From positions 1 through 27,280 of IMG/VR virus record IMGVR_UViG_3300021960_000409: 27,280 nt of DNA; one strand, written 5' to 3'. The notes below the pieces were generated by a model that saw nothing but the letters and a program-made list of their open reading frames with translations, searched no databases and was not told the origin of the DNA. Shown one piece after another: positions 4,281-21,459 of the stretch (position 1 is the stretch's first letter; each line of letters starts with the position of its first letter). The stretch is from a virus. The position numbers and the translations under genes are program-made.

Positions 4281-5854
4281 TGACTGCTAGAAATTATGAT
4301 ACTATTCTTACAGTAGCTGATGCTACTAATTTTGTACCTGGCAACTCTATAGTAGGTTCTACAAGTGCTACTGTAGGTTTTATTGCTAATGTAGATGTTG
4401 TTAGTAAACAGATAAAAGTAAAATTAAATAATGTTATGCAAGAGTTTCATAATAGCGAAACTATTACCTCTAAATCTGCTGTTATAAGTGGTACTGCAAA
4501 CGGATCCATAAACACTCTTAGTCTTCCTTTTCAATCAAATATATTTGCCAGTTTAACTACTACTGCTACTACTACTATAGCATCCCAAGCTCCAAGTTCT
4601 TTTATTGCTGCAAAAAATGCTTTTACCCAAAATCCTATTATTAGAATGTATGAAGTATACTATCCTGGTGAGTGGTTTCCTCCTGATCCTAATGGTAATC
4701 CTACAGAAAATGGAGAAGGTAGGGCTTGGCCTGTAGATTTTCCTTTAAGATTTGCAGATATAGCAGGAGATTTAGTATCAGATCTAAATTATAATGTAAC
4801 TTATGGTGGAACTTCTTTTGTACCTTATCCTGTTGATATATCAAGTATTAGTCAAGGTACTGATGGTAAAATTAATGAACTTACCTTAACAGTATTTAAC
4901 GTAGATAATATCATAAGCACTTTAGTTGAAAATCCTTATCTATTAGGAAATAACATATCTAACTCTTGTATAGCTTATGTAAATAGTGCTCCTGTACATG
5001 GTATAGATCCAAGAACTATAAATGCTGATCCTGCAGATGTGGGTAGCATAGGTGATGTAGCTTTTGATACTTTAACAAGAGCGAGAGCAAATGGGTTAGC
5101 ATTTAGTACTACTGTGGTAGGTGCTTATGGACAAGCTAATGCTTCTTTTACAAAAGAACAGACAGAATTTGTTAATGGCACTTGGCAGATACAAAAAAAT
5201 GATACCAGAGATTTATCTGGAGCAGTAGTAAACATAACAACTACCTTTGCTAATTTTTTAGATGTTTGGCCGGAGCATAGTTCTGTTAGATATGTAAGTT
5301 CAAATGTGGTAGAAGTATATAATGCTATGCCTTATAGAGTAGGAGATGTTGTCAGATCCTCAAAAGGATCTACTTCTGGTACTATACAAAGTATACAAGA
5401 AAATAGATTTTTATTTCTTAACAACGCCTTAGAAGCTAATACTGTTGTAGGAGATCAAATTTTTATTATTAATGCAGAGGCAGATAGTGAGTCTTATATT
5501 GAAGATAGATTTAAAATAGATCAACTTGAATCCTTAAATGATGTTACAGGCACTTTTGGATTAGTATCTTGGTTACAATATTTTAAACAAGTAACTCCCA
5601 GACGTAAATACTATAAAAATACGTGTCAATGGAAATATAAAGGTGAAGAGTGTCAGTACCCAGGACCAGCAGGTGGTACTATACCTGGTACCTCTCTTAC
5701 TGCTAATACAAATCCTATAGGTGTAGACAATAAAACTGCTTCAGGACCAGAAGGTGACATATGCGGTAAAAACATATTAGCTTGTACCTTAAGAAATAAT
5801 TCTATACATTTTGGAGGTTTCCCTGCAACAGGACGTACCATTCCAAAACAATAA
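4280..5854 (+). CDS. Tail-tip protein, lambda L-like, with probable [4Fe-4S] cysteines
   Basis: A 524-residue tail-tip protein. Residues 449-515 carry four cysteines, C449-x8-C458-x36-C495-x6-C502, followed by the FGGFP motif. This matches the C-terminal domain of lambda gpL, which is known to hold a [4Fe-4S] cluster; as I recall, the outer spacings of 8 and 6 are the same there. Only the central spacer differs, and here it contains a Gly/Pro/Thr-rich stretch. The ~290-residue N-terminal extension relative to gpL is beta-rich and starts with a small barrel-like segment (residues 1-75). A second segment resembling it lies near residues 335-400 (both with VGD or PGN turns followed by a Ser/Gly-rich strand). 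The ATG overlaps the stop of the preceding minor tail gene by one base, so translation is probably coupled. The last 44 bases overlap the radical SAM frame. Confidence 0.82.
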   Translation: MTARNYDTILTVADATNFVPGNSIVGSTSATVGFIANVDVVSKQIKVKLNNVMQEFHNSETITSKSAVISGTANGSINTLSLPFQSNIFASLTTTATTTIASQAPSSFIAAKNAFTQNPIIRMYEVYYPGEWFPPDPNGNPTENGEGRAWPVDFPLRFADIAGDLVSDLNYNVTYGGTSFVPYPVDISSISQGTDGKINELTLTVFNVDNIISTLVENPYLLGNNISNSCIAYVNSAPVHGIDPRTINADPADVGSIGDVAFDTLTRARANGLAFSTTVVGAYGQANASFTKEQTEFVNGTWQIQKNDTRDLSGAVVNITTTFANFLDVWPEHSSVRYVSSNVVEVYNAMPYRVGDVVRSSKGSTSGTIQSIQENRFLFLNNALEANTVVGDQIFIINAEADSESYIEDRFKIDQLESLNDVTGTFGLVSWLQYFKQVTPRRKYYKNTCQWKYKGEECQYPGPAGGTIPGTSLTANTNPIGVDNKTASGPEGDICGKNILACTLRNNSIHFGGFPATGRTIPKQ

Positions 5855-7022
5855 AATAAAAGGTTGTATACTACCTTGGATACATTTATTCGGTAGTATA
5901 AGTGGAAACTTTTATCTTTGTTGTCATGCTGAGTATACACCCATAACTACTATAGTTGGTACGCATAACGAATCTTTAGGTGACATTTGGAATGGTGATG
6001 CCTACAAAAAAGCACGACTTGATTTTATAAAAAATAAGATACCTCCAGAATGTATATCTGCTTGTTATAAAAAAGAAAAACAAGGTAGTGATAGTAACAG
6101 ATTAAAAGCTAATCAACGATTTAATAAATTAGCTCCATTACAATATAAAACAAATAAAGATGGTAGTTTAGATTCTAATCCTACTTATTTAGATATTAGA
6201 TTTGGAAACTTATGCAATTTTAAATGTAGAATGTGTGGGCCAGGAGCTTCTACAAGTTGGTATGCAGATACTACTTCGTCTGGGTGGTCTAAAACAATTG
6301 ATCATTATAGCAATAATGATAATTTTTGGGTAGATGTGCCTAAATTTATTCCTGAGCTACAAGATGTATATTTTGCTGGAGGAGAGCCTTTTGTGCAGCA
6401 AGGTCACTATAAAATGCTTGAACTTATTATAGATTCTGGTTATGCAGCAAATGTAAATCTTAGTTATAACACTAATCTTAGTTATTCTAAGTTTAAAAAA
6501 TATGATTTAAAAACTCTCTGGTCTAATTTTAAAAAAGTATCTGTATGGCCAAGTGTAGAAGGATATGGTAAACGTGCTGAATATGCAAGAAAAGGTTTAT
6601 CATGGTCTAAGTTTGAGGAGCATACTAAACTTTTTAAAGATAATATAACTACTGTAAGTTCTGTTATAAATATTTATAGTATTAGTTCTATGCCTGATCT
6701 TATTCTATGGTGTAAACGTAATAACATTCATTTCTATGGAACTACTCAGTCTGAGCCGCCACATCAAAAAATTACTTGTTTACCTAAAGAATCTAAACAA
6801 CAAATGATTTCTATGTATAAAAAATTTGTTAATGAATACTCTTCTATACTGACTTTTGAAGATTTACAACAAATTAAACATTGGCTATCTTATATGACCA
6901 GTAGCGATGACAGTAATTTATTGCACGATTTTAAAATAGAAACAGAAAGACTTGATTCTCTACGTAGAGAATCTTTTACTGATACTTTTCCGGAATTTGC
7001 TACATGGTACAAGACTTTATAG
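5811..7022 (+). CDS. Radical SAM enzyme inside the tail-tip operon, N-terminal Cys-rich type
   Basis: A radical S-adenosylmethionine enzyme. With the TTG at 5811 as residue 1, the cluster motif CNFKCRMC is C135-x3-C139-x2-C142, binding the [4Fe-4S] that cleaves SAM. FAGGEPF near residue 193 is the usual SAM-contact motif. The N-terminus has CILPWIHL and a CCHAEY pair (C19, C37, C38), a pattern that in related phage proteins resembles an auxiliary-cluster (SPASM/twitch-like) segment placed before the core. The substrate is unknown. The frame has no ATG before the core: the longest version starts at TTG 5811, inside the end of the L-like gene, and no in-frame ATG precedes the conserved CILPW motif. 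CTG 5823 has GGAGG five bases upstream, but those bases also encode the Gly-Gly of the L-like FGGF motif. The end overlaps the next gene by 19 bases. Family confident, start and role not. Confidence 0.88.
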   Translation: MEVSLQQDVPFQNNKIKGCILPWIHLFGSISGNFYLCCHAEYTPITTIVGTHNESLGDIWNGDAYKKARLDFIKNKIPPECISACYKKEKQGSDSNRLKANQRFNKLAPLQYKTNKDGSLDSNPTYLDIRFGNLCNFKCRMCGPGASTSWYADTTSSGWSKTIDHYSNNDNFWVDVPKFIPELQDVYFAGGEPFVQQGHYKMLELIIDSGYAANVNLSYNTNLSYSKFKKYDLKTLWSNFKKVSVWPSVEGYGKRAEYARKGLSWSKFEEHTKLFKDNITTVSSVINIYSISSMPDLILWCKRNNIHFYGTTQSEPPHQKITCLPKESKQQMISMYKKFVNEYSSILTFEDLQQIKHWLSYMTSSDDSNLLHDFKIETERLDSLRRESFTDTFPEFATWYKTL

Positions 7023-7402
7023 GCTTACGTCATTCATATGATGACATAAATTGCATAACATTAATTAAGAGATTTTACGATAGTAAGTTAAATTTACAAT
7101 TTTCTTTACCAGAATACCCCCTATCTAAACATTGGATTAAAGAATTTACTACAGTTAGTATTGATAATTGGGCAGCTCAATGTGCTAAAAAAGTAAGTTT
7201 GACAAATGCTAAAGATTATGATGTAATAGCATTTAGATCAGAAAAAACAAATTTAATAATTCATTTTGGTATGTATTTAATGGCTTCCAAAATGCTACAC
7301 ATCGAAGAAGGGGGAATTTCGCGTGTGGAAACTTTATCCGATTATTGGGTAGAGAGCATACATGCGATTTATAGACATGACAATTTGGTACAACAAATAT
7401 AA
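7004..7402 (+). CDS. NlpC/P60-like cysteine peptidase domain, first of a tandem pair
   Basis: A 132-residue protein with the layout of an NlpC/P60 papain-like fold. C17 lies in DINCITLIKRFY, where the catalytic Cys starts a helix. The strand DYDVIAFR is followed by IIHFGMYL with H87 as the likely catalytic His, and H97 could be the third polar residue. In lambda this domain is the C-terminal half of tail protein K and is thought to act on cell-wall peptide or in tail-tip assembly; members of the family cleave gamma-D-glutamyl-diaminopimelate or related bonds. Here it is a separate protein, starting 19 bases before the radical SAM stop and overlapping the next gene by 41 bases. The sequence is divergent (Asn, not Asp, before the Cys), so activity is uncertain. 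It has the same plan as the next gene product. Confidence 0.68.
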   Translation: MVQDFIGLRHSYDDINCITLIKRFYDSKLNLQFSLPEYPLSKHWIKEFTTVSIDNWAAQCAKKVSLTNAKDYDVIAFRSEKTNLIIHFGMYLMASKMLHIEEGGISRVETLSDYWVESIHAIYRHDNLVQQI

Positions 7403-7808
7403 AGATTTTCCATATTTACATTTAGGTAATGATATAGAAACAGGGATTGATTGTTTTAATCTCTGTAAATTAGTGTACTTAGAAGAACTAAATATTAATA
7501 TTCCCTATACTACAGATTATTTTTGTAAAATTATAGATGAAGATTGGTACAGCAAAACACAAGAAAAACTTTTTGAACGCGCAGCAACGGATGAATACGG
7601 CTGGATAAAAGTAAAAGATCCTAAACCGTTTGATGTTATAACCATGAGTTTAGGATCTACTAATGTTACTAATCATTGTGCTTTATATGTAGATAGAGGT
7701 AAAATTTTACAAACTATGATAAAACATAAAAGTTGGATTGCTCCTTATGGAAACTACTATAAACAATATACTACAGGGATATATAGATGGAAAGATTTAC
7801 AAAACTAA
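7362..7808 (+). CDS. NlpC/P60-like cysteine peptidase domain, second of a tandem pair (lambda K C-terminal type)
   Basis: A 148-residue NlpC/P60 protein that fits the family better than its upstream neighbour. The catalytic Cys is C31 in GIDCFNLCKLVY. The strand PFDVITMSLG precedes NHCALYVDRGKILQTM with H105, and H119 may be the third residue. In lambda the equivalent domain is fused to a metallopeptidase as tail protein K, a tail-tip protein needed in assembly and possibly in local cell-wall hydrolysis. Two start codons are possible: ATG 7362 (used here) and ATG 7377, five codons later; neither has a strong Shine-Dalgarno sequence, and both lie inside the upstream gene, which suggests coupled translation. 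The end overlaps the metallopeptidase gene by 22 bases. The pair appears to be an old duplication, as the order of motifs is the same but identity is low. Confidence 0.8.
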   Translation: MRFIDMTIWYNKYKDFPYLHLGNDIETGIDCFNLCKLVYLEELNINIPYTTDYFCKIIDEDWYSKTQEKLFERAATDEYGWIKVKDPKPFDVITMSLGSTNVTNHCALYVDRGKILQTMIKHKSWIAPYGNYYKQYTTGIYRWKDLQN

Positions 7809-8158
7809 AAGAAGATATGAACGCACATAGTATGCAAGATTATCCTAGAGAGTGTGTAGGTATTATAACAAATGACTTTACTTATATACCATGTAAGAAC
7901 ACCTCTCCTTTTCCAAAGGATACTTTTATATTAGATCCTGCAGCTTTAGTTAAATATGATGAAAATATATGGGGAATCTTTCATTCACACCCAGGAGACG
8001 AAAATCCCCTACCAAGTAAAGAAGATAAAGTAAGTGCTGCTTTCCAAGAATATAAATTTCTGGTAGGATTTAATAATAAATTTTTTCTATATTGGCTAGA
8101 CTCTAATGTAGATGCACTCATGTTTGATGAGTTTAAGGAAGAACATCTTGTTAATTAA
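7787..8158 (+). CDS. JAMM/MPN (JAB) metallopeptidase, lambda K N-terminal type
   Basis: A 123-residue zinc metallopeptidase domain with the full JAMM set: E22 in YPRECVG, H66 and H68 in FHSHPG, S77 and D80 in PSKED. The E-HSHP-PS-D order is that of the N-terminal domain of lambda tail protein K and of bacterial JAB peptidases. Here it is a stand-alone protein lying downstream of two NlpC/P60 genes, so domain order is reversed compared with the lambda fusion. It is probably a tail-tip component or assembly peptidase; its substrate is not known. The ATG lies inside the upstream gene (22-base overlap), with AGGG nine bases before it. The end overlaps the I-like gene. All metal ligands are present, so activity is plausible. 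Confidence 0.88.
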   Translation: MERFTKLKEDMNAHSMQDYPRECVGIITNDFTYIPCKNTSPFPKDTFILDPAALVKYDENIWGIFHSHPGDENPLPSKEDKVSAAFQEYKFLVGFNNKFFLYWLDSNVDALMFDEFKEEHLVN

Positions 8159-8882
8159 TCTTAAGATACACTCAGCTTATAATAAATTTTTTAGTGAAAA
8201 GATATATACTTTTGATGCTTATAGTGCTTTAGACATTATAGGCTATCTTAGAGGTGTGCATCATAAATTTTCCAAACATATGGTGGATATAGCATCAGGA
8301 AAGTCTGATGATTGTTTTAATTTATTAGACGGTAATTTACAAGAAATTACTGATGAAATGCTATATATTAAAAAATTTAAAGAAGGTGAGACTGTACATT
8401 TAGTGCCTACTATATGTGGTGGAGGTGGTAAATCTGGTAGAAAAATGTTTATGATATTTGCTATAGCTGTTGTAGTTATGAATCCTGCTCTTTTAGGTTC
8501 AGTAGGCAGCAGTCTTGGATCTATGTTTAGCGCTGGTGCTCCTTTAAATGCTATACCCCAATTGGGCGCAGTAAATGTAGGTGCAAGTGCAGCTACTGGT
8601 TTAAGTTTTATGCAAACTATGGGCCTTAATTTAGCTATGGCTGCTGTTACTTCTTTGATGACTAAATCTCCTGCAAAAAGAGCAAGTAAACAGACTGAAT
8701 CTACAGTAAGAGAAAATGGTATGTTTGGAGGACTTACTAATAGTTCTACAAGCGGTACTCCTATTGCTTTAATATATGGACAAACACGAGTAGGTGGTCA
8801 GTTTTTAAGTGGTTATATAAGTTCTATTGATCATGGTAGTGGTGACCCTATTAGTGTAGGAGGACAATTCGATGGCGTTTAG
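8148..8882 (+). CDS. Tail assembly protein, lambda I-like, probable TTG start
   Basis: This gene sits where lambda I sits, between K- and J-type genes, and has the same build. Its N-terminal part is a small ubiquitin-like domain (INLKIHSAYNKFF, FDAYSALDIIGYLRG, VHLVPTICGGG), followed by a Gly-rich hinge. A hydrophobic, Gly/Ala/Met-rich stretch (IFAIAVVVMNPALLG and beyond) then leads into a C-terminal tail ending in PIALIYGQTRVGGQFLS. I place the start at TTG 8148, which has AAGGAAG six bases upstream and gives an MLINLKIH start resembling the family. The frame also has ATGs at 8112 and 8127, but they lie deep inside the metallopeptidase gene and would add residues with no family look. Gpi-type proteins act in tail-tip assembly and are not thought to be in the finished tail. 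The end overlaps the J-like gene by 11 bases. Confidence 0.75.
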   Translation: MLINLKIHSAYNKFFSEKIYTFDAYSALDIIGYLRGVHHKFSKHMVDIASGKSDDCFNLLDGNLQEITDEMLYIKKFKEGETVHLVPTICGGGGKSGRKMFMIFAIAVVVMNPALLGSVGSSLGSMFSAGAPLNAIPQLGAVNVGASAATGLSFMQTMGLNLAMAAVTSLMTKSPAKRASKQTESTVRENGMFGGLTNSSTSGTPIALIYGQTRVGGQFLSGYISSIDHGSGDPISVGGQFDGV

Positions 8883-11800
8883 AAACTTTACTAATTATTC
8901 TACTTTTTCTGTTCCACAGATACAAGGAGCTAAAGGCGGTAAAGGTGGAGGAGCTGAACCGCATACTCCTATCGAGCATCCACAAAGTTTATTTTCTACT
9001 GATATTTTATTTGTAGTAGTGGGGTTAGGTGAGGGTCCGTTATACAGAATTAATCCTAATGGTCCTCAAGATGTAGAATTAGGTGATAATACTATTGATG
9101 ATCTAATAAATTTAGATGGGAATGGTTTAGAAAATACGTCTAAGTTTAAAATATTATCTAATACAGGTACTACAACACAAAATAGATTAGATGTATTTGG
9201 TGAGACAGTTACTACTCCTCAAAATTTTGCTTCTCCTGTTACTTTGAGAAGTGGTGGCGGAGGTATACCTGCATCTCAGGTAACTTTACAAGAAACATCC
9301 TCAAAAGATTGGGATGCTATATCTTTTAATTTTGCTATTGGAGGTTTACAAAGAATAACTGATAAAGGTGATGTATTAAGCCATAGTTTATCAGTAGCTA
9401 TAACTGTATTTGACCATACAGGTACTACTACTATAGCTACTGCCAGTAGAACTATTAGCGGTAAAACTACTGTAGCATTTAAATTTAGCATTAAAATACA
9501 AATACCTGAAGCTAGTAAGAATGTAAATGGTTACAGATTTTCTATTAGAAAAACTTCTGGAGATGGTACAAGTTCAGGTACTACTGATGATGTAAGTATA
9601 CAGGGTTGGAATGAAATAGAAAATTCTCCACAATCTTATCCAAGAACTGCTCATATAGGTTATGCATTAAAAGCAACAGATGAGCATAATGGTATACCTA
9701 CTTTTACATCTTTAGTTAAAGGTTTAATACATAAAGTACCTTCTAATTATAATCAACCTACTTTATCAACCGGAGAAATTGATTGGAGACATATAGAAGT
9801 ACCTGCTACAGGAGCAGAAAGTTCAGCTACTGCTGGTTACTATATGCAACAAACAGGATCTTCTGTACAAACTAGTTCTACTATTAACATATATAATGGT
9901 ACTTGGGACGGTACTTTTGTATATTCATGGTCACAAAATCCTGTATGGATTATATATGATCTACTTACAAACAAAACTTATGGTCTAGGAGTACCTGAAG
10001 AAAATATAGATAAGTATAGGTTTTATCAGATAGCACAATTCTGTGATGCTTGTGACTACACTACGGGTAATTTCATAGGAGTAGATGGTTTAGCTGACGG
10101 AACTTTTAGAAGTAAAGCCAGAGGTACTTTTACATCAAATAGAGAAAGACAGTTAGGAGTTGCCCAAGGTACAGTTATTAAAGAAAGAAGATTTACTTTA
10201 GATCTTATTATTGCTGATCAAGCTGAATCTTTTGATACTATTAATAGCTTAGCAGCAAGTTTTAGAGGAGCAGTATTATATGCTCATGGTAAAATTACTC
10301 TTGCTTGTGATCTTCCTGATGAAACTCCTGTTATGGTATTTAATGAAGCTACTATGAAAGAAAATACTTTTATTATTTCCGGTAATAAAGAGAGCGATAT
10401 TTTAACTGGTGTAGATGTAAGCTATGTTGATCCTACTAATCACTATAAACGAGAAACTGTACGTATTGATCAGTTAGGTAGTAATGATGGAATAACACAA
10501 ACTGAAATAGAAAATATAACTTCCTTAGACTTAGTAGGTGTAACTCGAAGAAGTCAAGCTCTACGATTTGCTCAATATCAGATAGCTGCTTCAAGATATT
10601 TAAAAAGAACAACTACTTTTACTACAGGTACAGATGCTTTGCAATTAGTTCCTGGTGACGTAATCTCCGTAGCACAACAAGCTTCTGGAGTAGCTTATGG
10701 TTTTGGAGGTAAGGTAAGAGCTGATTCAGTTGTGACACCTAATAATACTAATGTATTCTTAGAACACTATACTGTACCGTCTCTTAGTGCAAGTAATTTT
10801 GGATCATCTAACACCAGTCCTTTAGCTCTTCGTATTATAAAAGTAAAAAGCGACAGAATAGACTTATACTTAGTATCTAATTCTAATTTTACACTAAGTA
10901 CTACTGATAATGTTACCTCTGGGTTTGACCAAGCTATTGTTAATCCTATTGAAAGATTTAATCCAATTACTAAAAGTTGGGATGCTTATACAGCTTTTAC
11001 TGCAAATAATAAACCAGAAGCCGGAGATCTATGGACATTTGGTGAAATAGATAATCCTGATAATTTTTATACTTCTAAGAGCGATAAATTATTTAAAGTT
11101 ACGCAACTTACAAGAGAAACAGATGATGAAGAAGTATCTATATCTGCCGTTGAATACATATCTAATGTGTACGTAGACTCAGATAAATTTATTGATTATA
11201 AACCTACTGCATATACAGATATTCAATCCTCACTAACTGTTCCTCCTGTACCTCAATTTAAGTTTATTGCAAGTCCTAGGACAAGATCTGACGGTTCTGT
11301 AGCTGTAGACGGATTAATACAAGTAAATACTGATAGATTAGGTTTTGGTATTAGTTATGTAACTGAATATGAAATATCTAAACCTACTGGAGGATCTTTA
11401 GTAGCAAATAATATAGTAGTAGGTGATGTTAATACTATACAAGTAGTAGATGCAAATGTATTAGTAGGTGCTCCTGCTACTGCTACACTTGTAGGTAAAA
11501 ACGGTTTTACAAGTCCTGCAGGAGAGATAAAACTACTATGCACTGCTATTGAAAATACAGATACTATTGGTGGTACCGTTGATGGTAACATATCTCTAAC
11601 AGTACAAGGTTTTGGACAAGTATTTGATGATAATTTTCAATGTAATGTATTAGATGCTAATGATAATAGTGTGTTTGGTGCTCTAAAAGGTGAAGACCAA
11701 ATTAGTATACCTGTTAATCAGAATGTATCTGCACAAGGATTATTAAATTTTGTAGGTTTTGCGCCAATTGTCACAGCACTTAGTCGTACTATAGTAGGCC

Positions 11801-14800
11801 ATACAGTAGCTACTGATACTATAAAAATTGATAATACTAGAACTGATGATGAAACCCTTCTTAGTAAGATACCTCCAGCTCCTTTTTACGTAACAATAAA
11901 TCAACTACTTGACTCTAGACATTATAATAATAATACTTTTTATGTATCAGGTTCTGAGTTTACTCATGTACAATCTGGAGAAATAAATGATAGTGTTTCT
12001 GATAGTATTACAATTGATTTACCTGTTAGGCCTCGTGACGCAGCTTTTGTTAGACTATTTATTGATGGAGAACAAAAAACTGCGGGACAATTTACAGTTA
12101 ATCACACTAATCCTGCAGTAAATGCTACAATAGTTTATACTAAAGGTTCTACAGACACTGCATTCAGAGCTGAAGTAGATTACTATAGTGTCCCTATTAT
12201 TGAGAGAGGTGATAATGTACAAGCAGCTACTTCTAATGTATTTAGTGTAATAGAATGTACTTATGATCCTGCATCCAGTTTGTCTAATACAGCACTAACT
12301 GCTAATAATATATATAAAATAAAATTAGCTGCTTCTCCTAAAGCTAATTTAGGTGGTTTATTCTTTACTAACATATCTTCTGATCCCACAGGATTTTTAG
12401 GCAATATATCAGGAGGTACAGCTACTTTAGACTATGATAGAGATACTTTTCCTGGCAAATTTAGTTTAGCAAATAACCGAGTATATAATTTACAAATCGG
12501 TTCAGATTTTGAACAACTATTCTTAACTAAGGATCAAATTATACCTGGCTTACTACAAGGTACTACAGCACTAAGAGCTAGAAACAAAACAAGAGGTGGT
12601 AGAACCAGTGCTTTTAATACTAAGTTTATTCATATAGACAATATACCTATACAAAAAGTAAGAAATGCTACTATAGTAGAATCTTTATATAGGGAACAGA
12701 CAGGTGGTGTTGCTGTAAGAGCTACTATACAATTTGACCATATTTTTCAACAGAATGTAACTGACTACGAAATATCTTATAGAATGGATTCAGTAGATGA
12801 TGTGGGTGTAGATGATGGTGGTACAGATTTAACATCTTTTAATACTGTTAAAGTTCCTGCATCTGGGTTAGATAGTGATAATAAAATTAGATTTACAGTA
12901 AATGGAATAAACAGAGGTTTAACAAGTGATACCAGAAATATAATATTTAGAATTGTACCTTTAAATAAAGATATAAGAGGTTTACAAGCTACTGTAACTA
13001 AATCTATTATAGGTAAAACTGCTAAACCTGCAAATATATTTAACTTTACTGGAGGTCAGCAAATTGACCAAATTACTTTGTTATGGTCTTATGCACGTAC
13101 CACTGATGGAGAATTAGCAGATCTTGATCTTAAAGAAGTAATTGTAAAACGCTTACCAGGCGCTAGTGACGCAACTATAGATAATTTTGTTGCAGCGGCC
13201 GACTTAGTTACTATTTCAGCAGGTACTGCCCGTAAGTCAATACCTATTGATACTTATGGAGAATTTACTTACTTAGCAAGAACCAGAGATACAAGTGGTA
13301 ATTTTAGTGAGTCTGTTGTAGGTATTACTCTCACTACCAGTCGTCCTATTAGAAGTACCGTAGTTGCTGCTTATAATGAAGATGATCCTTCAACTAACTT
13401 TACTAATATAGTAAATACTAATAATGGAGAAACTAACTTTCCTTCTTTTTCTCAAAGTACTACAGGAGGATTAGCTTTTGCTGTTAGACCTTCTCCTTTA
13501 AGTGGTCCGAGTACTGCTACTGACAACGCTAATGGTACTTCCAGTGGTTGGTCTGCTACGTCTTCTGCTTCTGACTTATTAGCAGCAGGCTCTGGAGAAT
13601 ATATAACTCAAATTAGAGATTTTGGTAGTACTGTGACAGGTGCTATATACGTAGAAATTGAAGGTACTCAATCTGTTCAAACAAATTACAATAGTGCTAA
13701 AGAATCTATATTAACAGGTGTTACTGATGCTTCCGGTACTGTTGGTGTTCTAAAAGATGCAAGTTTTGGTGGTATAGGTACTGTATTAGGTTTTTCTAAT
13801 AGTTCTGTAGTAAGTCCTCGATTTGATTCTAATAATCAGACTTGGATGAGTGGTGGTGAGTCTGGTAATGTCTATGCTATATGGAATGATGGTCAGTATG
13901 TAGGTAATGTTATAAGTATCTCTGCTATAACAAAAGCCAGTCCTGCAGTAGTTACTACTTCAGGTAGCGAGCATGGACTGGTTAATGGCAATAGAATTAT
14001 TATTCATGATGTAGAAGGCATGACTGAAATAAATAATAGAGAACTATATGTTAATCGAGTAAACGCTACCAGTGTACAATTATATACTGATGCATCAACA
14101 ACCGCTGCTCTTAACTCTGGTGGTTTTGGTACTTATACTTCTTCAGGTGTATTAGATCAAGGTGATTATGCTAATTCCAATTCTTATTCGTTAATTGCAG
14201 GTTTGATAGATGCTGATGAAATTAGATTAGGCCAAACCTTTCATTCAAATGGTGATAGTACTGGAAGTAATGCTCTTGGTAATGTAACTACTGCAGCCAG
14301 TAATTATAAATTAGTTAATCTTAGACAGTATTCTGATTCAGGTACTGGTGATACATATGCCGGTAGTTTAGGTGCAATAAAAGCTCAAACACAAATTAGA
14401 ACTACAACTGCCGCTAACGCACAACTTTATGCTGCAAATATTAATGGATCTACAGGTGCATCGGAAGGTAACGCAGATATTTCTCAGTTTGTAGGTTCTG
14501 CAGTAAATGATGGTTTTCAAACTTATCAAGCTGGTAGTAGAACTTTTAGACAATTTCAATTAAAATTTATTGTGCAAAATGATCTGCCTGATGAATTTGA
14601 CTTTACAATTGATAAATTTAGGTATACTATAGAGAAAGATACAGTTACCTTTACAGATACTACAGCATATAATGCAACTACTAAAACTATTAGTATGGTT
14701 GACTCAGGGTTTTTAACCAGACCCGTAATAAGTTATGCAATGTTAAATGAGGATATACATGCACCTCACACTGTAGTTACTACCGCAGCGTCTAATCAGT

Positions 14801-14889
14801 CAGTTACTTATAAAGTATTAAGAAGTGATGGTTCTACTGGCGACACATCAAATGGTATGTCTGTAATGATGACAGCAACAGGAGTATAA
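8872..14889 (+). CDS. Central tail fibre / host-specificity protein, lambda J-like, 2005 residues
   Basis: This very large protein forms the tail-tip hub and central fibre that contacts the host. The N-terminus has the Gly-rich KGGKGGG turn and the HPQSLFSTDILFVV stretch typical of J proteins. Residues ~245-480 match the J core: RTAHIGYALKAT, NPVWIIYDLLTNKTYGLGVP, YRFYQIAQFCDACDY and TLDLIIADQAESFD. Residues ~1290-1500 have fibronectin-III-like strands (ITLLWSYAR, FTYLARTRDTSGNFSE). Residues ~1685-1750 (SEHGLVNGNRIIIHDVEGM, then ELYVNRVNATSVQLY) match a small beta domain, resembling the FCCH domain of ubiquitin-activating enzyme, that recurs in marine phage proteins. Lambda J has 1132 residues, so about 900 are extra, mostly in the receptor-facing half. 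The start is ATG with GGAGG eight bases upstream. The C-terminal third probably sets host range; its receptor cannot be read from the sequence. Confidence 0.92.
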   Translation: MAFRNFTNYSTFSVPQIQGAKGGKGGGAEPHTPIEHPQSLFSTDILFVVVGLGEGPLYRINPNGPQDVELGDNTIDDLINLDGNGLENTSKFKILSNTGTTTQNRLDVFGETVTTPQNFASPVTLRSGGGGIPASQVTLQETSSKDWDAISFNFAIGGLQRITDKGDVLSHSLSVAITVFDHTGTTTIATASRTISGKTTVAFKFSIKIQIPEASKNVNGYRFSIRKTSGDGTSSGTTDDVSIQGWNEIENSPQSYPRTAHIGYALKATDEHNGIPTFTSLVKGLIHKVPSNYNQPTLSTGEIDWRHIEVPATGAESSATAGYYMQQTGSSVQTSSTINIYNGTWDGTFVYSWSQNPVWIIYDLLTNKTYGLGVPEENIDKYRFYQIAQFCDACDYTTGNFIGVDGLADGTFRSKARGTFTSNRERQLGVAQGTVIKERRFTLDLIIADQAESFDTINSLAASFRGAVLYAHGKITLACDLPDETPVMVFNEATMKENTFIISGNKESDILTGVDVSYVDPTNHYKRETVRIDQLGSNDGITQTEIENITSLDLVGVTRRSQALRFAQYQIAASRYLKRTTTFTTGTDALQLVPGDVISVAQQASGVAYGFGGKVRADSVVTPNNTNVFLEHYTVPSLSASNFGSSNTSPLALRIIKVKSDRIDLYLVSNSNFTLSTTDNVTSGFDQAIVNPIERFNPITKSWDAYTAFTANNKPEAGDLWTFGEIDNPDNFYTSKSDKLFKVTQLTRETDDEEVSISAVEYISNVYVDSDKFIDYKPTAYTDIQSSLTVPPVPQFKFIASPRTRSDGSVAVDGLIQVNTDRLGFGISYVTEYEISKPTGGSLVANNIVVGDVNTIQVVDANVLVGAPATATLVGKNGFTSPAGEIKLLCTAIENTDTIGGTVDGNISLTVQGFGQVFDDNFQCNVLDANDNSVFGALKGEDQISIPVNQNVSAQGLLNFVGFAPIVTALSRTIVGHTVATDTIKIDNTRTDDETLLSKIPPAPFYVTINQLLDSRHYNNNTFYVSGSEFTHVQSGEINDSVSDSITIDLPVRPRDAAFVRLFIDGEQKTAGQFTVNHTNPAVNATIVYTKGSTDTAFRAEVDYYSVPIIERGDNVQAATSNVFSVIECTYDPASSLSNTALTANNIYKIKLAASPKANLGGLFFTNISSDPTGFLGNISGGTATLDYDRDTFPGKFSLANNRVYNLQIGSDFEQLFLTKDQIIPGLLQGTTALRARNKTRGGRTSAFNTKFIHIDNIPIQKVRNATIVESLYREQTGGVAVRATIQFDHIFQQNVTDYEISYRMDSVDDVGVDDGGTDLTSFNTVKVPASGLDSDNKIRFTVNGINRGLTSDTRNIIFRIVPLNKDIRGLQATVTKSIIGKTAKPANIFNFTGGQQIDQITLLWSYARTTDGELADLDLKEVIVKRLPGASDATIDNFVAAADLVTISAGTARKSIPIDTYGEFTYLARTRDTSGNFSESVVGITLTTSRPIRSTVVAAYNEDDPSTNFTNIVNTNNGETNFPSFSQSTTGGLAFAVRPSPLSGPSTATDNANGTSSGWSATSSASDLLAAGSGEYITQIRDFGSTVTGAIYVEIEGTQSVQTNYNSAKESILTGVTDASGTVGVLKDASFGGIGTVLGFSNSSVVSPRFDSNNQTWMSGGESGNVYAIWNDGQYVGNVISISAITKASPAVVTTSGSEHGLVNGNRIIIHDVEGMTEINNRELYVNRVNATSVQLYTDASTTAALNSGGFGTYTSSGVLDQGDYANSNSYSLIAGLIDADEIRLGQTFHSNGDSTGSNALGNVTTAASNYKLVNLRQYSDSGTGDTYAGSLGAIKAQTQIRTTTAANAQLYAANINGSTGASEGNADISQFVGSAVNDGFQTYQAGSRTFRQFQLKFIVQNDLPDEFDFTIDKFRYTIEKDTVTFTDTTAYNATTKTISMVDSGFLTRPVISYAMLNEDIHAPHTVVTTAASNQSVTYKVLRSDGSTGDTSNGMSVMMTATGV

Positions 14890-16158
14890 ATGGCATTAAC
14901 CGATTCAAACACCTATATTGAGCCAACTGCAGGTACATCACTTAATGCTGCTAGAACTCAATTTAATAACTCCATGCGCTCTTTGCTTACAAATTTTAGA
15001 AGCTCAGCAGCTCTTTCAACTGTAAATATTGTTGCAAGTGGTGTAGCTACTGATATACCTGATGGTGCTATGATGCAATTTGCTAATGCAAATGTTAATG
15101 CATTATTTATCTCTGATTCTACCACTAAGAAGAGCTCTCATATTGGTGGTAACTTTACTAGAGTAGGTATAGGACATCGCATAGAAAATGGCTTACCAGC
15201 GTTAACTTCTAATGTTTCACATTATGATATTGGAGAATTAGTAGTAACAGTACAAGAAGGCGCTGCACAGTCAGCCAGTCGGTTATATTTAAAAACCAGT
15301 AATACTGCTTCTATAGGATCTTTTTTAGACATTGGTACTCCTGGTGCTTTAAGTATTGTAAATACTATGATAGCTACCTCTGGGGTTACTTCTGATAAAA
15401 TCAATCTTGCTGTTCGTAATATTAAAACTAATGATATTGAGATAGTATCTACTGCAGCTGGAGGTGGAGGTACATGGTTTCCAGAAGTTACAGGTGTACA
15501 ACACGCACAACTTGCCATATCTGGTATAGGAGCAGGGTCTAATAGTGCTATAGTATTAGCAGGCTCTAATGCTACATCTAATCTGTCCTTAGCTTTTGAA
15601 CCTAACCAAATTGGTAATGGTAGTCACAATCAATTACATCATTTAGGTCTCAGCATAGTAAAACAAAATGGGGGTTACGCTCCTATAGCTTCTAACGTAC
15701 TGTTACAGTCTGCAATTTTAGGAGGCACAGATACTCCAGTACCTTTAGTACCTGCAGGTACTATAGTAGCTATGGCAGGAGCTGTACCTGCTGGTTGGTT
15801 AGAATGTGTTGGAACCGCTATTAGTAGAACCACATATTCTGAATTGTTTGCTATATTAGGAACTACTTATGGTGCAGGAAATGGTTCTTCTACTTTTAAT
15901 ATACCTAACTTTGAGAATAAAGTTATGATAGGAGAGTCCTCCTCTCATGCACTTGGACCAGGCGCAGGAACATTTGCTAGTGGGGGTACTATTACTACTG
16001 GATCAACTACTACAACTATAAATACTACTACAGCTTCTGCTTCAACAGGTGTTAAAGATGCTGGGGGTCTAACATGTGTGACAGGTGTTACAGCTGCCGC
16101 CCACACTCATACTGCAGTAATACCACATGCAGTAGCAAGATACATAATTAAAACATAA
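14890..16158 (+). CDS. Tail fibre protein with a phage tail-collar domain
   Basis: A 422-residue fibre or collar protein. Residues ~287-345 form a phage tail-collar domain: PAGTIVAMAGAVPAGWLEC, then YSELFAILGTTYGAGNGSSTF and NIPNF. This domain is common in short tail fibres and fibre tips. After it comes a Gly/Thr/Ser-rich stretch with AAHTHTAVIPHAVARYIIK, a usual C-terminal form in which His residues may bind metal. The first ~270 residues are beta-rich with no family I can name, and probably attach to the J-like protein or form a shaft. The ATG directly abuts the J stop, with AGGAG six bases upstream. It is most likely a virion protein involved in host attachment. Confidence 0.85.
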   Translation: MALTDSNTYIEPTAGTSLNAARTQFNNSMRSLLTNFRSSAALSTVNIVASGVATDIPDGAMMQFANANVNALFISDSTTKKSSHIGGNFTRVGIGHRIENGLPALTSNVSHYDIGELVVTVQEGAAQSASRLYLKTSNTASIGSFLDIGTPGALSIVNTMIATSGVTSDKINLAVRNIKTNDIEIVSTAAGGGGTWFPEVTGVQHAQLAISGIGAGSNSAIVLAGSNATSNLSLAFEPNQIGNGSHNQLHHLGLSIVKQNGGYAPIASNVLLQSAILGGTDTPVPLVPAGTIVAMAGAVPAGWLECVGTAISRTTYSELFAILGTTYGAGNGSSTFNIPNFENKVMIGESSSHALGPGAGTFASGGTITTGSTTTTINTTTASASTGVKDAGGLTCVTGVTAAAHTHTAVIPHAVARYIIKT

Positions 16159-16168
16159 GAGGGAAAAT

Positions 16169-16744
16169 ATGGAATATATAAAATTTTACATAGATGAGAT
16201 GGATCAAAGCTGTGTATTTTTTGAATACAGAAAAATAGAAGAAAATACGAAAGGCCCATTAATAACTAGGGCTTTTCCTTTTAGTAAAATAATTGAAAAA
16301 GAACCAAAAATAGAAGAACTGGTTTCGGGACCAATTATAGGTATTTATTATGAGCAGAGAGGTTTAAACTTTACAAGCGAGAGACAATGGATAGGTAAAA
16401 TTGAACCACTCGATCAAGAATTAATTGACTGGATCAAAGACTTAACTGAAAAAGTATGTGTATTAGAGATATATGATGAACTACTAAAACCTCCTACAAT
16501 TGATGAGCAGGTTGAGGATTTTATAAAAGAATTTTTTGAAGAAGGAGATTCAGAACCTCTTGAGCAAAAAGATTTCTTAGCAGAATTTTTTGAAGAAATA
16601 TCAAATGATAATACTTCTAATGAAACTGTTGTAAGTAGTTCTGATAATACTCTGACAGGTAGAATAAAAGAAAAATTTAATAATACATCATTAGAAACAG
16701 TAGATTTTTTAACAGAATTTTTTGAGCAGCTTGACGATGATTAA
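16169..16744 (+). CDS. Acidic protein of unknown function with three EFFE motifs, between two fibre genes
   Basis: A 191-residue acidic protein that I do not recognise. Its first ~105 residues look like a compact mixed alpha/beta domain (KFYIDEMDQSCVFFEYRK, then IDWIKDLTEKVCVLEIYDE). The rest is low in structure and carries the same short motif three times: DFIKEFFEEG (117-126), DFLAEFFEEI (135-144) and DFLTEFFEQL (179-188, at the C-terminus). Each would form a short amphipathic acidic helix, spaced by Asn/Ser/Asp/Thr linkers. The ATG has AGAGGGA just upstream, ten bases after the collar gene. Its place between the collar and repetitive fibre genes is where tail-fibre assembly chaperones are often found, so a chaperone or adaptor role is possible, but there is no similarity to lambda Tfa or T4 gp38 that I can see. 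Confidence 0.55.
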   Translation: MEYIKFYIDEMDQSCVFFEYRKIEENTKGPLITRAFPFSKIIEKEPKIEELVSGPIIGIYYEQRGLNFTSERQWIGKIEPLDQELIDWIKDLTEKVCVLEIYDELLKPPTIDEQVEDFIKEFFEEGDSEPLEQKDFLAEFFEEISNDNTSNETVVSSSDNTLTGRIKEKFNNTSLETVDFLTEFFEQLDDD

Positions 16745-16760
16745 TATTTAAGGAGTTAAT

Positions 16761-18512
16761 ATGGCGCTAACACGCATAACATCAACAGTTTTAGGGTCAA
16801 ATGCGGTTACTACCGATAAAATGGCTAATGGATCTTTAACAGCACGCTTATACGGAATAGCATCTATTCCTGCAAGTGCTTTAGATGCTACGGCCAGTGC
16901 AACAAGTTTAGTTGCAAATATAAATACAGTATCTGCTAATGTAACAGCCCTTGAAGCAAGACGAAATGCTAATCAAGCAGGTGCTGTATCTACTATAACT
17001 ACTGCAGACCTTACTGCTGATAGAGCATTAATTAGTACTGGAGGCAAGGTAGCAGTAAGTGCTGTTAGTACTACTGTTTTAGAATATTTAGGTGGTACAA
17101 CAGGTACTATACAAACTCAATTTGATTCAGTAAGCTCAAATGGTGCTGATATTGTAGCAAACGTTACTTCTGTTGAAGCTAGAAGAGTAGCTAATATTGC
17201 TGGAGCAATATCTACAGTAGTTACTTCTGATTTAACAGCTTCAAGAGCTCTTGTATCTGATGGTAGTGGTAAAATAGCTGCATTAGCTTCTGTTACATCT
17301 ACTGAATTAGGATATGTAGATGCTACCTCATCTATACAAACCCAACTTACTGCTGGTGTTACTAATACTAACTCTGTTAAAGCAAATGTAGATGCAGCCG
17401 AAGCTAATATAGCAGGTATAATAGCAGGTACTAAAAACTTTACTGGTCAAGTTACTATGGGTGATGACTTAGTAATTCAAGGTAATTTAGTTGTAAATGG
17501 TGATACTACTACTTCTAATACTATTAATGCCGTTATACAAGACAGATTTCTTATGCTTGCTAACTCTGTTACCGGCACACCTAGTGCTGATGTAGGTATC
17601 TTTATGAATAGAGGAACTTCTGGTAATGCAGCTATTTATTATGATGAGTCTACTAAATCATTTACCTTATCAGAAACCAGAGATCCTGATAGTAATGTTG
17701 TTATTAGTCCTACAGGTGCAGCTAATCTTATTACGGGTCAAATCACTGCTACTTCTGTAAAATATAATGGCGCAGATTTGAATACAGCTATCACAGACAA
17801 TCGTTCTGGTGCCGTATCTACTGTATATAAAGATGATCTTACTGCTTCCAGAGCTATAGTATCTGATGGAAGCGGTAAAATTGCTGTCTCAGACGTTACT
17901 TCAACAGAACTTGGTTATTTAGATGGCGTATCTTCCAGTGTCCAGACACAGCTTACTGCAGGAGTGACAGAGACTACAGCCCTTGAAGCAAGACGTGTGG
18001 CGAATATAGCAGGCGCAGTATCTACTATTACTACAGGTAACTTAACAGCTTCAAGAGCTCTTGTATCTGATGCCAGTGGTAAAGTAGCTGCATTAGCCTC
18101 AGTTACTTCTACTGAACTTGGATATTTAGATGCTACCAGTTCTATTCAGACACAATTAGATTCTAAAGGAGGTACTGCAGATTTTCAATCTAATGACTTT
18201 ATAACTTATACTCAGTTAAATGCTAATATTAATGTAGTATCTGGTAATGTTGCATTAGGTCTTAAACAACTTATAAACGTTTCGCCAAGCGCTGATGGTG
18301 AGGGTGCAGGTAATAATAATTTCTTTGTAGCTACTCCTGCTGGAGGTAATCCTACAGCTATTGATAATGTAACAGTTACTATAAACGGTGTTACACAAAT
18401 TAAAACAAATGATTACTTATATGATAAGAACACAGGTAAGGTAACCTTTAAAGAGGCGTCTATACCGTCAGGTCTGACTGTTCAGATTGTAAGTCTTAAT
18501 CCGCCAACCTAA
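16761..18512 (+). CDS. Repetitive tail fibre / virion structural protein
   Basis: A 583-residue fibre-type protein built from repeats. Four copies of a ~55-60 residue unit occur at residues 64-123, 138-197, 346-399 and 408-467. The unit begins with EARRxAN, then GAVSTI, LTASRALVSDGSGKIA, VTSTELGYLD and SSIQTQL. The third copy lacks EARR. Between copies 2 and 3 lies a domain (DDLVIQGNLVVNGDTTTSNT, then VIQDRFLMLAN and GIFMNRG) known from structural proteins of marine myo- and siphophages. The C-terminal ~65 residues (TPAGGNPTAIDNVTVTINGV, then VTFKEASIPSG) form a closing beta domain. The start MALTRITSTVLGSNAV is also seen in such fibres. The ATG has AAGGAG nine bases upstream. The stop overlaps the second radical SAM gene by one base. 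Repeats 2 and 4 are very similar at the DNA level, so recent duplication or gene conversion is likely. Confidence 0.82.
   Translation: MALTRITSTVLGSNAVTTDKMANGSLTARLYGIASIPASALDATASATSLVANINTVSANVTALEARRNANQAGAVSTITTADLTADRALISTGGKVAVSAVSTTVLEYLGGTTGTIQTQFDSVSSNGADIVANVTSVEARRVANIAGAISTVVTSDLTASRALVSDGSGKIAALASVTSTELGYVDATSSIQTQLTAGVTNTNSVKANVDAAEANIAGIIAGTKNFTGQVTMGDDLVIQGNLVVNGDTTTSNTINAVIQDRFLMLANSVTGTPSADVGIFMNRGTSGNAAIYYDESTKSFTLSETRDPDSNVVISPTGAANLITGQITATSVKYNGADLNTAITDNRSGAVSTVYKDDLTASRAIVSDGSGKIAVSDVTSTELGYLDGVSSSVQTQLTAGVTETTALEARRVANIAGAVSTITTGNLTASRALVSDASGKVAALASVTSTELGYLDATSSIQTQLDSKGGTADFQSNDFITYTQLNANINVVSGNVALGLKQLINVSPSADGEGAGNNNFFVATPAGGNPTAIDNVTVTINGVTQIKTNDYLYDKNTGKVTFKEASIPSGLTVQIVSLNPPT
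17232..17347 (+). repeat. Fibre gene direct repeat, copy 1
   Basis: The DNA encoding fibre residues ~158-196 is nearly repeated at 18042-18157. The first 30 bases of the two copies are identical, beginning TTAACAGCTTCAAGAGCTCT, and the rest differs at scattered positions that are mostly synonymous. Two further, more diverged copies of the same unit lie near 16996-17130 and 17830-17960. Confidence 0.8.
18042..18157 (+). repeat. Fibre gene direct repeat, copy 2
   Basis: Partner of the repeat at 17232-17347; the two starts are 810 bases apart, a multiple of three. Recombination between the copies would remove or add 270 residues of the fibre in frame, including the central non-repeat domain. 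Confidence 0.8.
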
Positions 18513-19513
18513 TGAAAAAGTATAGACAACTTACAACAGAATTAACTTTTAGATGTAATGCCAAGTGTCCTGCTTGTCATAGAGTTAAACCTCTTCGTAT
18601 TAATTTAAATGATAAAAAATATACTATAACATTAGATAAATTTAAACAACTATTTTACCCAGAATTACTTAAAAATTTAGAATGGTTAGTTATTAATGGT
18701 AATTTTGGTGACTCTGTAATGAATAAACAGTTTCGTGAAATTATATCATATGTTAAAGAGCATGATACTCGTATATTAATTCATACTAATGGCGGTATTC
18801 ATGGACATGATTACTGGACAGATGTAGGAAATATATTAACAAATCGTGATATTATTAATTTTGATATGGATGGTTTAGCAGATACACATTCTAAATATAG
18901 GATTAATACTAAATTTGAAGATGTATTTAGTAATGCTTGTTCAGTGATTAAAGCAAATACTGCACAAGTGCATTGGAAGTATATAGTATTTGAGCACAAT
19001 AAACACCAAGTAGAAGAAGCTCGACAAATGGCTTTAGATTATAACTTTCATACCTTTTCTACTGTTAAAACTTCAAGAGATGTATTTGCGCCTAAGAGTG
19101 GTAAATTTATACATTCTAAAAAGAATAAAGAAAATATGGATAAAGCTGAACGAGTTATTAAATGTGTGTGGGATAACTGGGGTAAGTGGTATGTGTCTCC
19201 AGAGGGATTAGTATTTAGATGTTGTTGGACAGGGGGGCATTATTATGATGAAAATCAATCTCGTTTTTACTATCCTCCTAAATTTGAAAATTTATTTAAT
19301 GGATTACACGTTCCTTTGGAAAAGATTCTAAGTTATGATTATTGGACTAAGTTACAGAATTATTTAAAAGGGTATGATAGATCATTTAGCTTATGTAAGT
19401 CTCAGTGCGGTAAAATTGTATCATCAATAGAAAAAACAGAAGAAAATCTTACTACAGGCAAGAAAGTTTTATTTGATTCACATAGTCAAAATGCCCAAGT
19501 AAGAGAAGCCTAA
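18512..19513 (+). CDS. Radical SAM enzyme with a SPASM-like C-terminus, coupled to the fibre gene
   Basis: A 333-residue radical SAM enzyme. The cluster motif CNAKCPACH gives C15-x3-C19-x2-C22. In place of the usual GGEP it has INGNFGD near residues 70-76, a variant seen in related radical SAM/SPASM proteins. The C-terminal part carries C218, C237-C238 (FRCCW), C295 and C299 (SLCKSQCGK), a set consistent with an auxiliary Fe-S cluster domain. Enzymes of this build often modify peptides or proteins. The ATG overlaps the fibre stop (TAATG), there is no good Shine-Dalgarno sequence, and translation is likely coupled to the fibre. It is of a different subtype from the radical SAM protein at 5811-7022, so it is not a simple duplicate. 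The substrate is unknown; the fibre just upstream is an obvious candidate. Confidence 0.88.
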   Translation: MKKYRQLTTELTFRCNAKCPACHRVKPLRINLNDKKYTITLDKFKQLFYPELLKNLEWLVINGNFGDSVMNKQFREIISYVKEHDTRILIHTNGGIHGHDYWTDVGNILTNRDIINFDMDGLADTHSKYRINTKFEDVFSNACSVIKANTAQVHWKYIVFEHNKHQVEEARQMALDYNFHTFSTVKTSRDVFAPKSGKFIHSKKNKENMDKAERVIKCVWDNWGKWYVSPEGLVFRCCWTGGHYYDENQSRFYYPPKFENLFNGLHVPLEKILSYDYWTKLQNYLKGYDRSFSLCKSQCGKIVSSIEKTEENLTTGKKVLFDSHSQNAQVREA

Positions 19514-21365: not shown

Positions 21366-21459
21366 AGTTTTTCAAAGGTCTAAGGTAAAATACACTAAAC
21401 CAAAAAAACGTAAGAGTGTTAAGTCTAAAAAGAAAAAAATTAATCGGCGTAAAAAATAA
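21349..21459 (+). CDS. 36-residue Lys/Arg-rich peptide, last plus-strand gene
   Basis: A short ORF, ATG 21349 to TAA 21459, overlapping the upstream gene by 17 bases. It encodes MPIVPEVFQRSKVKYTKPKK and then a run dominated by Lys and Arg to the C-terminus (SKKKKINRRKK). Its 3' end runs 20 bases into the convergent minus-strand gene. About half the residues are Lys or Arg. Basic peptides of this type can bind nucleic acid, but in an A-rich genome Lys-rich ORFs arise easily, so this may be non-coding. The lack of a strong Shine-Dalgarno sequence is offset by the overlap with the gene upstream. Confidence 0.4.
   Translation: MPIVPEVFQRSKVKYTKPKKRKSVKSKKKKINRRKK

Follow-up and report, generated by a model that had tools for sequence, protein, structure and literature searches.

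Organization of the tail gene block

The IMG/VR virus record IMGVR_UViG_3300021960_000409 comprises 27,280 bases, and this whole stretch, read as one strand, is referred to below as the window. Its tail genes are arranged in the order tape measure, DUF2460, L, RS1, NlpC, NlpC, JAB, I, J, collar, the protein encoded at 16169–16744 (hereafter the 16169 protein), fibre and RS2, where RS1 (5811–7022) and RS2 (18512–19513) code for two enzymes of the radical S-adenosylmethionine (SAM) class; features of the window given with coordinates lie on the plus strand unless stated otherwise. An earlier note on this DNA had recorded radical SAM open reading frames (ORFs) at these two positions and had proposed that each of them modifies a product of the message it shares with the overlapping tail gene. 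Both genes are real and carry the motifs described there. The gene upstream of RS1 (4280–5854), which had been called L-like, encodes a tail-tip hub protein that is a true Phage_tail_L member (PF05100, 85.6 bits; cut-off 25). RS2 is preceded by the gene for a repetitive fibre protein (16761–18512; PHROG 16122), with which it shares one base (TAATG). Such overlapping, co-directional genes suggest joint expression.

Two radical SAM enzymes with opposite domain order

RS1 (403 aa) contains an N-terminal CILPW...CC stretch, a CxxxCxxC motif at C135/C139/C142 and GGEP at residues 190–193. Its class membership follows from NCBIfam model NF033640 (N_Twi_rSAM), on which it scores 353.6 bits, well over the curated cut-off of 170. 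RS2 (333 aa) has its SAM cysteines at C15/C19/C22 and the sequence NGNFGD at residues 62–67. It was assigned to the class on account of its cysteines, its predicted fold and a match to PHROG 21308 (E 1.8e-29), which spans only positions 418–656 of the 735-position profile and is therefore not full-length; the best NCBIfam model for RS2 is far under its cut-off (43.1 versus 380 bits) and the other models matching it are weak too. Both proteins fall below the gathering cut-off of the Pfam family Radical_SAM (PF04055; 20.9 bits for RS1 and 15.1 for RS2, cut-off 29.5). Judging from their sequences, they are divergent members of the class, placed by evidence other than PF04055.

The auxiliary cysteines of RS1 (C19, C37, C38, C81 and C85) are all N-terminal to the SAM cysteines. 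C19 is present in 51 of the 54 aligned proteins, and the other four are kept in all 54, as are C135, C139 and C142. The auxiliary cysteines of RS2 (C218, C237, C238, C295 and C299) are C-terminal to the SAM cysteines, and every cysteine named is invariant in the 35 aligned proteins, C238 (34 of 35) excepted. The SPASM domain has seven auxiliary cysteines. The earlier note had spoken of radical SAM/SPASM enzymes; the first half of this description holds, and the SPASM half was dropped because just five auxiliary cysteines are conserved in each protein, although the short SPASM model of Pfam nonetheless matches RS1 (30.8 bits versus 21.5). SPASM domains hold two auxiliary clusters, and the twitch domain is a truncated version with one (PMC9012708, excerpt). 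The cysteine number of both RS1 and RS2 would fit a single auxiliary cluster, and the two look like twitch enzymes rather than full seven-cysteine SPASM proteins.

When the two profiles were compared in local mode, the auxiliary domains matched each other with a probability of 76% (E 2.2e-5) and the cores with 97.5%, against 0.9% for auxiliary domain versus core. RS1 and RS2 therefore share the same two-domain plan in opposite order, with the auxiliary domain N-terminal in the former and C-terminal in the latter, and did not arise by recent duplication, in line with the earlier view that they represent different subtypes.

AlphaFold2 models of RS1 and RS2 have a mean predicted local distance difference test score of 93 and 80, respectively. 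Counting fold matches within Z 1 of each other as tied, the RS2 model is closest to the peptide maturase SuiB (Z 19.2, root-mean-square deviation 4.2, 262 aligned residues), followed by SkfB (18.0) and BlsE (17.7), with DesII, anSME and MoaA as further neighbours. The RS1 model is closest to BlsE (Z 12.4, root-mean-square deviation 4.0, 217 aligned residues), then to MoaA (11.8) and SkfB (11.6); most of these matches begin at about residue 100 or later, so that the N-terminal part is little tested by them. Folds resembling the whole of RS1 are predicted also for proteins of uncultured Caudovirales and of Vibrio phage KVP40. Sequence searches of the PDB returned viperin alone for RS1 (E about 3e-5 across 40 residues) and no match for RS2.

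Linkage and selection in related phages

Viral contigs were scanned with RS1, RS2, L and the 16169 protein as queries, and the best 80 relatives from each alignment scan were kept (RS1, best 80 of 552; RS2, of 141; L, of 352 and of 396; the 16169 protein, of 157 and of 159). Proteins scoring above 400 bits on a purpose-built profile were taken as the distinct full RS1 set. L is located directly upstream of 98 of these 99 proteins. The downstream gene is in 85 cases the first NlpC/P60 gene (NLP1; 7004–7402 in the window; PF00877, 24.6 bits versus 23) and in seven the second (NLP2; 7362–7808; PF00877, 36.3 bits); six contigs end there and one has another gene. The exception on both sides is L223, a contig of a Neomarinimicrobiota metagenome-assembled genome (MAG). 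A fibre gene is directly upstream of 63 of 64 distinct RS2 genes, the remaining one being at a contig edge, and the one-base overlap is found in 52 of the 64. In 60 of them the second gene upstream is of the 16169 type. The linkage to L-like and fibre genes, which the earlier note had suggested should be sought in relatives, is thus strong among the relatives kept.

RS1 and RS2 occur together in 18 of 28 chosen long contigs, always on the same strand and 11–14 kb apart. For nine of the other ten, the place of one enzyme is reckoned to be off the contig. In the tenth, G011, the RS1 place is empty, and elsewhere on the contig there are just below-cut-off matches, the better of which scores 43.7 bits and has four stops. 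The only RS1-type gene over the cut-off that lies outside the tail block in the 28 contigs is a paralogue in G007.

Both genes are under strong constraint. Against close relatives, the ratio of non-synonymous to synonymous substitution rates (dN/dS) is 0.04–0.06 for RS1 (two pairs) and 0.03–0.08 for RS2 (four pairs); the corresponding values are 0.15 for L (two pairs), 0.16–0.26 for JAB (two), 0.11–0.34 for collar (two), 0.08–0.19 for the 16169 protein (three) and 0.26–0.31 for the fibre (two). Since the order is kept in dozens of distinct relatives and dN/dS of the two enzymes is 0.03–0.08, placement by chance, which had been offered as the alternative, is excluded.

The 16169 protein and the fibre as neighbours of RS2

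The conserved partner in the RS2 block is a protein that the earlier note did not mention. The gene at 16169–16744 encodes an acidic protein with a variable N-terminal part. Its acidic C-terminal tail carries a VEDFIKEFF segment and, once or twice, a KDFLAEFF segment, and of the 24 columns that are invariant in the protein 19 fall at residue 103 or later. In the window the repeat cores are FIKEFF (residues 118–123; 16520–16537), which is invariant in 12 of 12 aligned proteins, FLAEFF (residues 136–141; 16574–16591), where L137, F140 and F141 are invariant and F136 nearly so in the same number, and FLTEFF (residues 180–185; 16706–16723), a second copy of DFLxEFF. Among 102 distinct full proteins of this type, the second motif is present in all, the first in its strict form in 92 and as a near variant in 10, and DFLxEFF occurs twice in 40. 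The core F[IL]x[ED]FF, in two to three repeats, was found in 222 of 222 copies of the gene, and even the looser pattern F[ILV]x[EDQN]FF in none of the 3569 other genes called in the phage loci. Searches of Pfam, PHROGs and phage records returned no match to this protein.

Wherever at least 3.5 kb lies behind a 16169-type gene, RS2 is downstream of it (89 of 89 loci, duplicates included). Among 106 distinct proteins of the 16169 type, 85 have RS2 downstream, in every case with a fibre gene in between. The contigs of the remaining 21 stop short of the fibre, within it or shortly after it, and have no more than 2,459 bases remaining. The first RS2 codons are visible at the contig edge in three of these (L318, L325 and L360), and L478 ends in fibre-like sequence.

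The fibre gene directly adjoins RS2, and a similar C-terminal sequence is common to many of the listed fibres, so that the repetitive fibre might be the protein modified by RS2. We consider this rather improbable. Over 21 loci (L055, which has no full-length RS2, was excluded), RS2 is 72–98% identical to that of the window where the fibre spans 30–81%, fibre length ranges from 214 to 863 aa among relatives, and the C-terminal sequence is another one in the fibres beside RS2 of L181, L185, L188, L190 and L191. The 16169 protein is the constant companion of RS2 and the better candidate for its substrate.

Two further candidates were examined and rejected. The repeats do not extend to the loci of distant RS2-like enzymes: in 29 genome-contig loci and two named-phage loci, F[IL]x[ED]FF occurs in four of 1595 ORFs, scattered, and its role as a substrate of those enzymes was dropped. 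A basic ORF of 64–78 aa (KFKFLRFPNQGIRRNEKIRKLAT...GYPIKYSKPIGFKRKR) is conserved behind RS2 in much of the wider family (L214, L176, L199 and others); the single copy tested has no Pfam match. It was dismissed as a required precursor peptide, being missing right behind RS2 in the clade of the window and in other phages that keep RS2.

Relatives lacking RS1

Counting loci with duplicates, L is followed by RS1 in 205, directly by NLP1 in 15 (on 14 contigs) and by NLP2 in L443; four loci end before the next gene. In a tree of 70 L proteins, the seven RS1-less ones of the NLP1 type form a single branch (100/100), next to the RS1-bearing L145/L146 (97/78, fork not starred), and L443 is placed elsewhere (100/98). 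On this tree, rooted at the midpoint only, absence of RS1 would amount to two changes, most simply two losses. No RS1-like sequence was found in the six contigs of the RS1-less clade that were searched, one of them 70 kb long. The L443 contig is just 6.2 kb, and RS1 could sit in another part of the genome. Five contigs of the clade carry RS2 (G011, G030, G032, G033 and G281); RS2 was not found in G031, G034, G035 and G280, where its place is reckoned to lie past the contig end, G280 ending within a long ORF at the fibre position. Since RS2 is retained without RS1, the functions of the two enzymes are separable.

The RS1-less clade is a natural control for effects on neighbouring proteins, which include the JAB-domain tail protein (7787–8158; PF14464, 39.5 bits; PHROG 30) and the I-like tail assembly protein (8112–8882; PHROG 32, E 3.9e-15). 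A column was regarded as near-invariant when 97% or more of the RS1-bearing phages share its residue, and as kept when 90% or more of the RS1-less clade do so. By this measure the clade keeps 119 of 133 columns in L, 63 of 67 in DUF2460, 32 of 34 in JAB, 15 of 20 in NLP1, 21 of 21 in NLP2 and three of five in I. The five L columns that changed are F18, N22, I35, A36 and N37. They were dropped as a footprint of RS1 because all five are unchanged in L443, which also lacks RS1 at this place, and because an insert lies close by in the clade. Moreover, the overlap of RS1 with the downstream NlpC gene is near-constant (19 bases, as in the window, in 76 of 85 distinct RS1 genes with an NLP1 neighbour), and so L is not a privileged neighbour; the length of the L/RS1 overlap differs among relatives. 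As far as such comparisons go, L is not demonstrably the substrate of RS1. The idea taken from the earlier note that RS1 modifies L and RS2 the fibre is consequently not supported as it stands: RS1 can be absent with L near-intact, and RS2 stays far more uniform than the fibre.

L has four cysteines (C449, C458, C495 and C502), kept in 11 of 11 aligned proteins, which by analogy with gpL of phage lambda are the presumed site of a [4Fe-4S] cluster. In gpL such a cluster is present, its role still being described as to be characterised (PMC10721106, excerpt). RS1 might then take part in assembling or repairing the cluster in L. This is very unlikely, given that the aligned L of the RS1-less clade retains all four cysteines along with most near-invariant columns, and that tail-L sequences occur in 153 phage-isolate records versus three with an RS1-like sequence, all distant.

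Relatives of the enzymes beyond these phages

RS1-like sequences are rare in isolates, being found at E 1e-5 in three of 50,697 phage-isolate records, all about 24% identical. In bacterial and archaeal assemblies, relatives of RS1 were found in 29 genome-contig loci and are 24–36% identical save one at 49%. The latter (L223:7878–9065) lies between genes that by eye are lipoprotein-like, on the Neomarinimicrobiota MAG contig mentioned above, and is possibly a trace of phage host range. RS1 is not a common Neomarinimicrobiota gene, a possibility that was set aside after two of 245 genomes matched at E 1e-30, one of them closely. An RS2-like gene is found in the same stretch in 10 of the 29 loci (L229, L230, L232, L233, L234, L242, L244, L246, L247 and L249), so the pairing of the two plans is not confined to these phages. 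Among named phages, the RS2 relative of Pelagibacter phage Mosig is clustered with aminotransferase, carbamoyltransferase and methyltransferase genes, tail-fibre genes lying about 8 kb away, and the relative in Vibrio phage K566 sits near other radical SAM genes.

Relatives in bacterial assemblies, together with the dispensability of RS1, might indicate that RS1 and RS2 are hitch-hiking accessory genes acting on a host protein, RNA or lipid. Such a role seems improbable to us, as the position in the structural operon is fixed over deep divergence, dN/dS is very low and, the G007 paralogue apart, no RS1-type gene over the cut-off was seen outside the tail block of the long contigs.

Additional radical SAM genes were observed in two loci: a second gene of the N-terminal-twitch type at L388:3588–4688, near PDDEXK-like and exonuclease genes and outside the tail block, and two more radical SAM-like genes (by eye) in tandem at L389:2127–3858, upstream of a fibre-like gene.

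Possible role in tail maturation

Tailoring of tail proteins is proposed because two conserved single enzymes lie within a structural operon. RS1 and RS2, as twitch radical SAM enzymes in a lambda-like tail operon, would modify tail proteins made from the same message ahead of assembly, the 16169 protein in the case of RS2 and the tail tip in the case of RS1; we regard this general reading as the best one and give it roughly even chances. RS2 would be a fixed part of the fibre block, with the 16169 protein, at its F[IL]x[ED]FF segments, as the likeliest target and the fibre as the second. RS1 would belong to the tail-tip block as an enzyme in its own right, one that the phage can do without, and would act on some tip component, not demonstrably L. 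Aromatic or acidic residues might, for example, be cross-linked, epimerised or oxidised. A more specific version, in which RS2 modifies the repeated segments of the tail-associated protein in the manner of a maturase of peptide natural products and the permuted RS1 adds an independent, optional modification of the tip, is put forward only tentatively.

Several observations weigh against tail tailoring. The solved enzymes predicted to be nearest to RS2 and RS1 include BlsE, DesII and MoaA, which act on sugars or nucleotides, and the twitch enzymes BtrN and MoaA have small-molecule substrates (PMC9012708, excerpt). RiPP systems with a radical SAM maturase combine a precursor peptide with a leader-binding domain, the RiPP recognition element. 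Pfam recognises no leader-binding domain in RS2; the repeat protein is linked to RS2 wherever this is visible, yet no RiPP recognition element was recognised. Distant RS1 relatives (24–36% identical) adjoin L in none of 28 bacterial and archaeal assembly loci. Columns lost without RS1 number five in L, two in JAB and none in NLP1, NLP2, I or DUF2460. Distance correlations over 32 non-redundant loci yield no clear RS1 partner among the tip genes (partial r 0.34 for NLP2, 0.29 for DUF2460, 0.18 for NLP1, 0.01 for JAB and −0.04 for L). Finally, the alignment scans cover the best 80 relatives each, and the kept gene order may partly mirror a slowly rearranging lineage.

The enzymes could instead have small-molecule substrates, for example sugar nucleotides, with products that decorate the virion or the cell surface. 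A cysteine number matching one auxiliary cluster, as in BtrN and MoaA, the nearest folds of RS1, the biosynthetic cluster around the Mosig relative of RS2 and a weakly glycosyltransferase-like gene kept in many relatives all agree with this. We nevertheless hold this, the main alternative, to be unlikely, if still worth serious attention, as no other sugar-biosynthesis gene was recognised in the tail operon of the window, the single enzyme genes are wedged among structural genes and the top fold match of RS2 is the peptide maturase SuiB.

RS1 is over the cut-off of NF033640 and has its auxiliary cysteines at the N-terminus as that family does, but the subclade found here has a fixed place, with L on one side and NlpC tail genes on the other; no assigned function for NF033640 was found in the literature searched. 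RS2 resembles in predicted fold the SPASM/twitch peptide maturases SuiB, SkfB, CteB, PqqE and ChlB, from which it differs in having five auxiliary cysteines instead of seven, in lacking an N-terminal extension before the radical SAM core and in its putative substrate, which is a protein of the phage and not a short precursor. BtrN, MoaA and BlsE share the one-cluster cysteine number and, the last two, the fold closest to RS1, but differ in genomic setting and from RS1 also in that its twitch domain is at the N-terminus. In the host recognition cluster of pelagimyophages, radical SAM genes likewise belong to a region concerned with tail fibres (PMC7029224, excerpt), although as variable cassettes, whereas here each is a single gene at a fixed place in a tail operon of the lambda type.

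A radical SAM system for tail maturation was not among the matches listed in the literature searched (preprints and most subscription papers excluded), which agrees with the remark in the earlier note that no described phage system was recognised; a phage radical SAM protein is mentioned in another context (PMC10783043, excerpt). If tailoring of tail proteins is correct, a phage lineage known here from environmental contigs alone would finish its tails by radical chemistry, virion maturation of this kind being unreported among those matches, and a function would be available for part of the uncharacterised NF033640 enzyme family.

Gene overlaps and the start of RS1

The overlap of L and RS1, given as 44 bases in the earlier note (5811–5854), has that length if RS1 starts at TTG 5811; the one-base overlap of the fibre and RS2 given there stands. 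TTG 5811 falls within the L codons CAT TTT GGA GGT TTC CCT (encoding FGGFP). GGAGG at 5813–5817 is located five bases before an in-frame CTG (5823–5825) and would fit a ribosome-binding site for it. Translation of RS1 may thus start at CTG 5823 rather than at TTG 5811, 5813–5825 being a possible start signal within the L gene, and the overlap would then shorten to 32 bases. In 53 distinct L genes with a 44- or 56-base overlap, the first glycine codon of this region is always GGA and the proline codon always CCT. GGA makes up 4–70% at 17 of the 18 other invariant glycine columns of L and 98% at the remaining one, which is also within the overlap, and CCT makes up 15–91% at 19 other invariant proline columns. 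The fixed codons imply that GGAGG ahead of CTG 5823 is maintained. However, 31 of 37 relatives in which RS1 starts elsewhere retain GGAGG as well, as do four of eight RS1-less relatives; the codon bias is therefore not unique to the CTG 5823 start.

Other genes of the window

The K protein of lambda consists of NlpC and JAB domains. In the window K is split into NlpC, NlpC and JAB genes. The order DUF2460/L/NlpC-JAB/I/J is otherwise that of the lambda tail-tip genes M-L-K-I-J (for the order L, K, I, J: PMC10721106, excerpt), from which it differs in that a radical SAM gene separates L from the K-like genes. The tape measure was named from its position and make-up and has no family match. The J-like central fibre or host specificity protein (8872–14889) was identified by tblastn matches to tail proteins of isolates (top match E 2e-41), and the tail collar fibre protein (14890–16158) by PF07484 (67.8 bits).

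Two minus-strand genes, at 22173–23294 (the weakly glycosyltransferase-like one, with no matches among phage records) and 21440–22234 (with no Pfam match), stay paired in relatives. L exists in two forms of about 524 aa (as at 4280–5854 in the window) or 755 aa (for example L008:7777–10041), and the insert of the longer form matches J weakly in some loci. An intein-like insert is present near the N-terminus of J in some relatives, such as L387:8315–15520 and L443:4433–6244 (CFPAGSLV.../CFPAETLI...), and the intein-like start motif occurs in 11 of 307 J ORFs, duplicates kept.

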